Origin: Methylocystis sp. Sn-Cys
GTDB taxonomy: Bacteria > Pseudomonadota > Alphaproteobacteria > Rhizobiales > Beijerinckiaceae
Length of the DNA stretch: 64,000 nt
Direction: 5' to 3'
Assembly (NCBI RefSeq): GCF_016745395.1
Contig: NZ_JAERVJ010000003.1
Span: forward strand, 62,001 to 126,000
Shown here: in pieces, positions 21,800-63,979 of the stretch
Numbering within the stretch: the stretch's first letter is position 1
Layout of the letters: the number at the start of each line of letters is the position of its first letter
Made by a program: the position numbers and the translations under genes
The notes under the pieces: generated by a model
What the model saw: the letters and a program-made list of their open reading frames with translations, nothing else
Databases searched by the model: none
What the model was told of the DNA's origin: nothing

Positions 21800-21926
21800 C
21801 CGGTTGTGGTAAAGCTGCAACAGCACAGCTTTTTTGGAGCTTCGGCCCCCGCCGAACACAGTTTTGCCATAGCTCACGCGTGCAATCGTCGTGTGCTCTC
21901 CTTGGGCATTTCCTCCCTGAACTTGG

Positions 21927-21955
21927 GCCGCTGGCCGACCAGCGGCTCTTTTTTT
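21927..21955 (+). terminator. Rho-independent terminator
   Basis: An 8-base stem GCCGCTGG / CCAGCGGC with a 4-base loop is followed by CT and a run of seven T. It faces right and probably ends the transcript holding the 21569 gene, although 130 bases separate them, leaving room for a small RNA. Confidence 0.8.
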
Positions 21956-22096
21956 GGCCCGATGGGCGTTTTTCGGCCCTCGCCGGGCGGCGACCGCAGT
22001 CAGGGCGGTTTCGCCAAGGCTTCCAATCGCGTATGATCCGCTCAGCCTGCGCTGAGCACCGCAGGAAATCCAAATCAATCGAGAAGGGACGTGTGA

Positions 22097-62351: not shown

Positions 62352-62960
62352 ATGAATTCGAGGCTTTTGGTTGCAACGGCGCTATCCGCGCTCGCGCTCG
62401 CTGGCTGTTACAGCGGGACGCGTTTGCCCGAGCCGAAGCTGTCGGGTCGCGACGCCGAATTTCTGGCGCTCGCGCCGAAAGCCGAAATCAGCTCCGAATT
62501 CGATCGCTATCTCGTGGATTACAAGACGAACGAGCCGGTTGGCTCGATCATCGTCGATTCCAGGTCGCATTTCCTTTACTACGTGATGCCCGGCGGCAAG
62601 GCTGTTCGTTATGGCGTTGCGACAGGGCAGGACGCGATGGGTTGGAGCGGCCGCGCCTATGTTGGCGCGATGCAGGAATGGCCGCGCTGGATTCCGCCCA
62701 AGGACATGCTCCAGCGCTGGCCGCATCTGCAGCCGACCGCCGACGCCGGCGGCCTGCCGGGCGGCCCGGACAATCCGCTCGGCTCGCGGGCCCTCTATCT
62801 CTATCAGGAGGGCAAGGACACGCTCTACCGCATCCACGGCACCAATGAGCCGGAGAAGATCGGCCAGGGCGTTTCCTCGGGCTGCATCCGCATGCGCGAC
62901 ATCGACGCGATCGACCTCTACAGCCGCGTGAAGGTGGGCACCAAGGTCGTCGTGATCTAA
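62352..62960 (+). CDS. L,D-transpeptidase lipoprotein (YkuD domain)
   Basis: A 202-residue exported enzyme that makes 3-3 cross-links or links lipoprotein to peptidoglycan. It has a lipoprotein-type signal (LLVATALSALALAGCYSG, lipidated Cys at the start of the mature form). The YkuD domain shows IIVDSRSHFLYYVMPGGKAV, the His-x-x-Asn of YRIHGTNEPEKIGQGVSSGC and the catalytic Cys in GVSSGCIRMRDIDAIDLYSR. Active-site residues are complete. The ATG at 62352 is preceded by GGAAAGGAG. No partner gene is adjacent. Confidence 0.92.
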   Translation: MNSRLLVATALSALALAGCYSGTRLPEPKLSGRDAEFLALAPKAEISSEFDRYLVDYKTNEPVGSIIVDSRSHFLYYVMPGGKAVRYGVATGQDAMGWSGRAYVGAMQEWPRWIPPKDMLQRWPHLQPTADAGGLPGGPDNPLGSRALYLYQEGKDTLYRIHGTNEPEKIGQGVSSGCIRMRDIDAIDLYSRVKVGTKVVVI

Positions 62961-62966
62961 ACTATT

Positions 62967-63117
62967 GTGATTCCCGGCGGGCTGAAAGCCCGACGGGAAT
63001 CTAGCCACAAGAGCGCTGGTTTTACTCAAAGCCCGTCATTGCGAGCGAAGCGAAGCAATCCAGGGCGGCGATGCGGCCCTGGATTGCTTCGTCGGCTCCG
63101 CCTCCTCGCAATGACGG
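62967..63117. repeat. Composite repeat: half of family A then family B
   Basis: A family A half (GATTCCCGGCGGGCTGAAAG then CCCGACGGGAATC, 62967-63002) is followed by a full family B palindrome (63034-63117) nearly identical to that at 25880-25963. Here the order is A then B, the mirror of the composites at 53825 and 63837. Confidence 0.85.
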
Positions 63118-63202
63118 CGGTGATTCCTGTGTGTCCAAACGGCGCGAGCGTCGGGGATGGCGCCGAACCAGTCGAGCAGATCCCGCACAATGACCGCGGG
63201 AC

Positions 63203-63239: not shown

Positions 63240-63343
63240 GAGCCACCCTTCGGCCCGTGCGCCCGCGCACTGTGTCTGCGTCCCTGCCTCCCTAATCTGC
63301 GCTTATTCGCCGATGGGCGAGGCGGAGATAGAAGGAGGCTTCC

Positions 63344-63487
63344 ATGCGACAGACAGCGGGATTGGGCGCTTTGCTCGTGGTCTTTCTGGTTCTCGCGCTC
63401 GAATTGGCTGGCGCTGGCGCTTATGTCGTCTCGAGCGCTCATGCGGATGCGAGCGATTTTTGCTTCGGCTATGCGCTTTGTCGTTAA
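63344..63487 (+). CDS. Tiny secreted cysteine peptide (DFCFGYA-x-C family, copy 1)
   Basis: A 47-residue precursor with a strong ribosome site (GAAGGAGG seven bases before the ATG). Residues 4-34 are a hydrophobic signal (GLGALLVVFLVLALELAGAG) ending SSAHADA, a good signal peptidase site. The predicted mature peptide is only about eleven residues, SDFCFGYALCR, with two Cys six positions apart that could form a small ring. The last part matches the second gene at 63628 nearly exactly (DFCFGYA-x-C). The conserved end, against a dissimilar signal region, argues for selection on the mature peptide. No known family is recognised. Confidence 0.72.
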   Translation: MRQTAGLGALLVVFLVLALELAGAGAYVVSSAHADASDFCFGYALCR

Positions 63488-63517
63488 GCACGCTCGAGGG
63501 CGCCTGGACGGTTTCTC

Positions 63518-63543
63518 GGAACCGGAGCCGTAGGATCGGCGTT
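63518..63543 (+). promoter_or_regulatory. EcfG-type stress promoter of the second tiny peptide
   Basis: GGAAC at 63518-63522, 17 bases, then CGTT at 63540-63543 is an exact EcfG consensus. It starts 31 bases after the stop of the first peptide gene and lies 85 bases before the second peptide start. It places at least the second peptide in the general stress regulon. Confidence 0.72.
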
Positions 63544-63627
63544 AGTCGGCCAAGGGGGCGCAGGCGCGCAAATTGAGAGGCGAGGCAGCCCCGATATTGC
63601 GGCGCAAGGCATTTCGGGGAGGGGCTT

Positions 63628-63759
63628 ATGAGAAAATCACTTATTTTCGGCCTTCTATCGCTGATGGTGGCGGCAAGCTTCGCGAGCGCGGGGGCCTTGT
63701 TCAAATCGCCCTCCGCGGCGGCAGCCGATTTCTGCTTCGGCTACGCCATCTGCGAGTGA
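63628..63759 (+). CDS. Tiny secreted cysteine peptide (DFCFGYA-x-C family, copy 2)
   Basis: A 43-residue precursor starting at ATG 63628 after GGGGAGGGGC, a good ribosome site. The signal part (RKSLIFGLLSLMVAASFASA then GALFKSPSAAAA) shares almost nothing with copy 1, but the mature end DFCFGYAICE matches DFCFGYALCR at eight of ten positions. Cleavage after AAAA would release about ten residues with two Cys. An exact EcfG promoter precedes it. The two genes read as a tandem pair of paralogues that diverged except in the product. No homologue is known to me; function could be signal, metal-binding or membrane-active peptide. Confidence 0.75.
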   Translation: MRKSLIFGLLSLMVAASFASAGALFKSPSAAAADFCFGYAICE

Positions 63760-63836
63760 TACGAGATCCGCTTGATTGGTTCGGTGTTGATCTCGACGTT
63801 CGCAGACGAGCGATCGGAATTACCGCCGTCATTGCG

Positions 63837-63979
63837 AGGAGGCGGAGCCGACGAAGCAATCCCGCGCCGCATCGCTGCCCTGGATTGCTTCGCTTCGCTC
63901 GCAATGACGGGCTCCGAGCAAAACCAGCGCACTTATGGCTCTGGATTCCCGGTCGGGCTTTCAGCCCGCCGGGAATGAC
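63837..63979. repeat. Composite repeat: family B followed by family A half
   Basis: A family B palindrome (63837-63910) with a shortened right loop is joined to a family A half (63938-63979, GGCTCTGGATTCCCGGTCGG then CCGGGAATGACAC). The joint spacer is nearly identical to that at 53910-53935. It runs to just before the window end; no gene is seen there. Confidence 0.82.

Follow-up and report, generated by a model that had tools for sequence, protein, structure and literature searches.

In this study, we examined a pair of small genes in a 64,000-nucleotide stretch of Methylocystis sp. Sn-Cys DNA, referred to here as the window. Copy 1 (63344..63487, + strand) encodes a mini-protein of 47 amino acids with the C-terminus DFCFGYALCR, and copy 2 (63628..63759, + strand) encodes one of 43 amino acids ending in DFCFGYAICE; the two adjacent frames of 47 and 43 codons with near-identical ends, which had been described in the original prediction, are present as claimed. 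The Shine–Dalgarno sequence of copy 1 is AGAAGGAGG and that of copy 2, which is weaker, is GGGGAGGGG. The N-terminal parts of the two proteins differ, and the earlier statement that their signal regions are unrelated holds between the two paralogues but not within the subtypes described below, inside each of which the region is conserved. Codons for DFCFGYA occur twice in the 4.02 Mb genome, both times in this pair, and since they are found only here and are kept in genomes of the same genus, the pair is more than a chance resemblance. Neither of the two window peptides gave a match above the curated cut-offs of Pfam and NCBIfam, and six of their relatives gave none above cut-off in Pfam, the best sub-threshold match being PBP_N with 14.7 of the 30 bits needed. 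Similar GC-rich, palindrome-like repeats (CGTCATTGCGAG...AGCAATCCAGGG...), which resemble intergenic REP-type elements, flank the pair in inverted orientation at 63030-63120 and 63825-63915. Elsewhere in the window, at 21888-21962, lies a match to the suhB/mmgR small RNA (Rfam RF00519), which scores 56.1 bits where the gathering threshold is 41.

The relatives of the two proteins fall into subtypes. Type A, to which copy 2 belongs, comprises proteins of 41-44 amino acids with an ASFASA-like site, about 12 variable residues and then, in most members, the end DFCFGYA[IV]CE. Type B, represented by copy 1, is about 47 amino acids long and follows the pattern LELAGAGAY..SAHADPSD-x-C-x-GYA-x-C-x. 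The gene order transpeptidase, B, A is found at many Methylocystis loci, and at one of them (L065) an alignment judged by eye places a degenerate copy-1-like stretch where copy 1 would be, with copy 2 intact. A 48-residue type C with a short tail is the sole copy at the locus in five cases (L009, L012, L014, L027 and L028), and type D, 44 amino acids long and ending in ADAC[LM]GYA[IL]CR, is present in eight of nine Methylosinus genomes; in G105, the remaining one, two other copies occur instead. Extra copies away from the main locus occur in two genomes (two in G205 and one in G227; L163, L164 and L165) and end in DPCLGYAIC[QE]. Downstream of those at L164 and L165, on the same strand, a membrane-type class III cyclase is encoded (PF00211 in L165), and genes for a radical SAM protein and a pyridine-nucleotide oxidoreductase lie further on. 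Among the matches listed, C-x-G-Y-A-x-C is kept in 175 of 177 proteins (the exceptions are P0088 and P0119); in 168 of these 175, an Asp precedes the first Cys by two residues, and in 166 the second Cys occupies the penultimate position. Exactly two Cys residues are found in 145 of the 177 proteins.

The family has a narrow range. In a sample of the taxonomic family, the DFCFGYA pattern was present in 8/10 genomes of the same genus and 0/189 others, and a relaxed pattern, D[FL]CFGYA, was found in 32/39 same-genus genomes and its reversed control in 0. One further genome (G208) has the variant end CYGYAIC, which brings the Methylocystis total to 33/39. No member with the conserved end was found in the other six of the 39 (G199, G089, G207, G209, G213 and G225), of which G199 and G089 are complete genomes. 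A profile built on copy 1 matched in 39/397 family genomes, namely 30 of Methylocystis and nine of a second genus, which is identified as Methylosinus since a 612-bp stretch of one of its genomes matches M. sporium DSM 17706 with 100% identity; all eight Methylosinus genomes of the family sample are among these nine. Outside the two genera, four genomes gave matches at E values of 0.002-0.008 and one at 7e-5, with no alignment spanning the whole conserved end, and the order samples (397 genomes) yielded no convincing member beyond Methylocystis and Methylosinus. A search of 5.8 billion proteins returned at least 177 distinct members, to which one contributing search gave its best 120 of 125, and the organism names visible among them are Methylocystis throughout. 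The search for a DFCFGYA-x-C-type ending in related genomes and proteins, which had been proposed as a check, has therefore found it conserved in 33/39 Methylocystis genomes and in Methylosinus. A synteny search that started from the adjacent L,D-transpeptidase gave a less biased view: a frame ending in C-x-G-Y-A-x-C lies at 20 of 44 transpeptidase loci, and all 20 rank among the 23 most similar loci (L011-L033). Of these 23, L018, L021 and L031 lack the end, and at L018 just 98 bases are present downstream. In the literature text searched, DFCFGYA, CFGYAIC, CYGYAIC and FCFGYA were unmatched, only the letters GYAIC occurring, a single time in each of three papers, and no description of these peptides was found. 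The family is apparently undescribed and is lineage-bound; its members are predicted exported mini-proteins that share a single fixed C-terminal epitope, and its two main copies are under different control.

The substitution pattern indicates that the frame is translated and that the C-terminal end is its most constrained part. Across the last ten codons of 27 distinct type A genes, synonymous differences are saturated (pS 0.85) and pN is 0.003, a low value that is partly built in because the A and B gene sets were picked with patterns containing C-x-G-Y-A-x-C; the synonymous changes in the core are unaffected by this motif-based picking. The dN/dS values of the same genes are 0.23 for the signal and 0.59 for the linker, and for 22 distinct type B genes they are 0.075 for the core, 0.40 for the signal and 0.30 for the linker. 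When type A genes were reached via transpeptidase synteny, 15/15 ended in DFCFGYA[IV]CE. The proposed count of synonymous against amino-acid-changing differences hence gave a synonymously saturated core with few amino-acid changes, and this pattern, together with the conserved end behind signal-like starts, bears out the suggestion of a genuine protein-coding family.

Upstream of the pair lies a gene for an L,D-transpeptidase with a YkuD domain (62352..62960, + strand; PF03734, 79.6 bits). At the Methylocystis loci examined, the next gene downstream of the peptide genes is convergent and encodes a membrane protein of some 190 amino acids, for which no Pfam family was found, with lpd beyond it; in this genome the convergent gene is situated just past the window end (L002:1796-2383). 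The same convergent neighbour, recognised by a short motif, is present at 6/8 Methylosinus type D loci, with lpd or xerC at the other two. Since this neighbour is common to both genera, the family is, on the evidence of gene order, probably older than the split between them. The other flank is the transpeptidase in Methylocystis and xerC in Methylosinus, and a link to the transpeptidase is therefore not essential. The replacement by xerC weakens the idea of a functional connection, and we do not hold the transpeptidase gene to be part of the peptide system. No copper gene, modifying enzyme, exporter, protease or receptor gene was recognised beside the pair.

The two main copies differ in their upstream regions. 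Copy 2 is preceded by an EcfG-type promoter sequence, GGAAC-N17-CGTT (63518..63543, + strand), 110 nt upstream of its ATG, which agrees with the published motifs GGAAC-N16-CGTT (PMC3892343) and GGAAC-N17-20-GTT (PMC6599016). An exact GGAAC-N16/17-CGTT is found within 230 nt in 26/27 distinct type A upstream regions and in 0/23 of type B; in the type A regions listed the site lies 105-151 nt ahead of the ATG, and its spacer and flanks vary. The one type A region lacking it (L070) is 215 bases from a contig end. A relaxed form of the motif was absent within 180 nt in eight type D, four type C and six other regions, and the extra copies likewise have no EcfG site ahead of them. Genome-wide, the 4.02 Mb contain 52 exact sites (27 + 25) against 83 for the reversed control, and as the motif is not enriched, the case for the promoter is one of conserved position: at the genome density, about 0.0015 sites would be expected per 230-nt stretch and strand. 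Elsewhere in this genome the motif is found in the interval that separates phyR from nepR-ecfG, as well as ahead of a ferritin-like (Dps-like) gene. The genes phyR, nepR and ecfG are all present, with PhyR and an ECF sigma factor encoded at a NepR locus. Three NepR matches exceed the cut-off (L239, L240 and L241), and since two of them are at phyR/ECF-sigma loci, the stress system may be duplicated. The exact EcfG promoter sequence claimed for copy 2 is confirmed, and stress control of this copy is well supported by the sequence comparisons. In its promoter, copy 2 resembles members of the EcfG/PhyR/NepR general stress regulon of Alphaproteobacteria as this is described in the sources cited (PMC3892343, PMC6599016), whereas copy 1, which has no GGAAC-N16/17-CGTT promoter, does not. 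The S. melonis EcfG regulon also includes an entry annotated 'Predicted small secreted protein' (#1442), a likeness by description only.

Copy 1 has a palindrome of its own, GTGCG-N4-CGCAC (63257..63270, unstranded), which may be an operator or a leader hairpin, and a CCTAA box (63291..63295, + strand) that is a possible -10 element. In 21/23 upstream regions of type B the palindrome is exact and begins 81-89 nt ahead of the ATG; in type A it is found in 0/27. A C[CT]TA[AC] box begins exactly 20 nt past the palindrome in 22/22 scored type B regions, L005 having been left unscored because its palindrome differs. Such a constant distance would agree with an activator site whose centre is near -41; that the palindrome instead forms a hairpin in the leader is also possible. 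In Methylosinus type D, 3/8 regions have the exact palindrome 88-90 nt upstream of the ATG, with one or two changes in the remaining five; the CTAA box was not seen in these regions. In the three genomes searched as a whole, there are 18, 18 and 26 GTGCG-N4-CGCAC sites versus 8, 6 and 4 of the reversed control. Among the gene groups common to all three that were inspected, one has its site within a frame and two just past a stop codon, and no palindrome regulon was recognised among these inspected groups. GTGCG-N4-CGCAC is also found near transpeptidase-related frames at L214 and L216 (both in G177) and L233 (G078), where no C-x5-C peptide end of the family was seen.

Signal peptidase I typically recognises small-x-Ala sites (A/S-x-Ala). 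Across 22 aligned members, an Ala in such an A/S-x-Ala setting, located about 12 residues ahead of the conserved end, does not vary; the type B equivalent is GAGA|Y. A layout of the kind expected for Sec export and signal peptidase I, with a positive n-region, a hydrophobic h-region and the small-x-Ala site, was seen by alignment; the starts of both paralogues are signal-like, as previously proposed. Most type B members have a Glu within the hydrophobic stretch, which is unusual for a cleaved signal. Because the conserved site precedes the conserved end by about 12 residues, a mature peptide of about 20-25 residues is more likely; a crude script that takes the first possible site gave mature lengths peaking at 23-24 residues. 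The original estimate of about ten residues is accordingly probably wrong, and the release from the cell that it assumed finds no support, no exporter or receptor gene having been recognised adjoining the pair. Structure prediction with AlphaFold2 from 22 sequences gave a mean pLDDT of 65.8 and no usable fold, and a comparison with solved structures gave no convincing match (best E 0.71).

We suggest that the two genes are paralogues of one Sec-exported mini-protein family of Methylocystis and Methylosinus. Signal peptidase I would cut the precursors of about 40-50 amino acids at their small-x-Ala site, which is conserved, to yield a periplasmic peptide of about 20-25 residues, consisting of a variable linker and the fixed epitope D-x-C-x-G-Y-A-[IV]-C-x. 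In the oxidising periplasm, the two Cys residues would probably form an intramolecular disulfide closing a seven-residue ring over C-x-G-Y-A-x-C, which is plausible from the sequence. The fixed Gly-Tyr-Ala between two Cys, next to a linker that is free to vary, suggests a folded contact surface, and a periplasmic Cys–Cys ring would be the simplest way to hold it. The ring may then dock on an envelope partner common to both genera, for which no candidate was identified. Copy 1 would be expressed from its own promoter with the conserved palindrome, and copy 2 would be transcribed with sigma-EcfG, general stress thereby increasing the dose. What the sequences show directly is the family with its paralogues and its range, selection on the coding frame and the conservation of the promoters; export, cleavage, the ring, the partner and the role in stress are inferred from them. 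As a whole, this account of exported, ring-closed, partner-binding periplasmic mini-proteins with copy 2 as the stress dose is our best explanation, and we would give it an even chance of being correct.

Several other explanations were weighed against it. The peptides could be periplasmic thiol peptides binding Cu(I) or another metal through the two Cys, with no ring formed, and serve metal handling in copper-dependent methanotrophs; in the samples searched, the family is confined to two genera of methanotrophs, which would agree with this, as would the two fixed Cys, and copper-binding peptides and proteins are known from both genera (PMC3621798, PMC5171941). Simple chelation would, however, not need a Gly-Tyr-Ala as fixed as the Cys themselves, no other Met, His or Cys is fixed, regulation lies with the general stress sigma factor, and the pair has no recognised copper gene beside it, so that we consider such a role unlikely. 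No more probable in our view is that an uncleaved small membrane protein with a periplasmic Cys tail acts at the inner membrane as a small stress regulator or a self-limiting toxin, for which HokB or YohP provides the comparison. The single hydrophobic stretch with a short periplasmic-type tail, the conserved Glu in the type B stretch and the stress promoter of copy 2 speak for it, and a small-x-Ala site whose Ala is invariant in the aligned set speaks against it, as does the fixed tail behind hydrophobic stretches that share little sequence between the paralogues. Small stress-induced membrane proteins such as YohP (PMC12719787) and HokB are likewise shorter than 50 amino acids, hydrophobic and stress-linked, but differ from the proteins described here, compared by description only, in that the latter have a likely cleavage site and a fixed C-terminal epitope. 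A released signal or toxin of about ten residues, as first envisaged, appears less probable again. It would explain the conserved short end behind divergent leaders, and many type B members have a possible second site, SAHA, just ahead of this end; however, two type B proteins (P0114 and P0117) do not have the Ala at the SAHA place that would give a 13-residue form, Sec export alone leads to the periplasm, no exporter, protease or receptor gene adjoins the pair as far as recognised, and an epitope nearly fixed over paralogues and genera is unlike signals that distinguish strains.

The methanobactin precursors MbnA are likewise short Cys-containing peptides of Methylocystis and Methylosinus, but according to the source cited they combine a leader rich in Lys and Arg with the core motif C-[GAS]-[ST] and are immediately followed by MbnB (PMC3621798); the present proteins differ in their signal-like start, in C-x-G-Y-A-x-C and in having no MbnB neighbour. 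That they are precursors of another modified peptide (RiPP), such as a bufferin-like product with oxidised Cys, seems very improbable. Bufferins, which are RiPP precursors that have Cys residues and a Sec signal peptide, and other MNIO-modified precursors, including a CxxxxC family, show the order also predicted for our proteins, a signal peptide followed by a Cys-containing mature part (PMC12452194). In the CxxxxC family, however, four residues separate the Cys, compared with five here (PMC12452194). Bufferin precursor genes, as described there, precede an MNIO gene (PMC12452194), whereas no such gene or other modifying enzyme was recognised beside the pair, where the convergent membrane protein gene and lpd follow, and the radical SAM genes near the extra copies are about 3 kb (L165) and 3.4 kb (L164) off, with opposite-strand genes between. 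Least credible of all is a leader or translation-arrest peptide that controls a downstream gene. The secretion monitors SecM, ApdA and ApdP likewise combine an export signal with conservation at the extreme C-terminus (PMC7897499), and the extra copy at L165 precedes the same-strand cyclase gene. Against this, our proteins lack a RAPP-like motif and are much shorter than these arrest peptides, their hydrophilic part falling far below the 40-residue criterion (PMC7897499). At the main locus, where no same-strand gene follows, we reject this explanation, since the next downstream gene is convergent and leaves no gene to control at the loci examined.

The gene family, which no Pfam or NCBIfam model fits, joins a strongly conserved epitope to a conserved stress promoter. 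In a more specific and rather doubtful version of the preferred explanation, a new dose-controlled periplasmic ring peptide with a C-x-G-Y-A-[IV]-C near-fixed in the paralogues of both genera, supplied by one palindrome-controlled gene and one stress-controlled gene, might act on a single envelope receptor and possibly feed back on stress sensing or envelope remodelling in dormancy; Methylocystis forms resting cysts. Methylocystis and Methylosinus are widespread methane consumers (PMC7285482), and the family offers a clean and testable example of mini-protein paralogues that share their active end and are regulated differently, in which the peptide would serve as bait for its presumed envelope partner.
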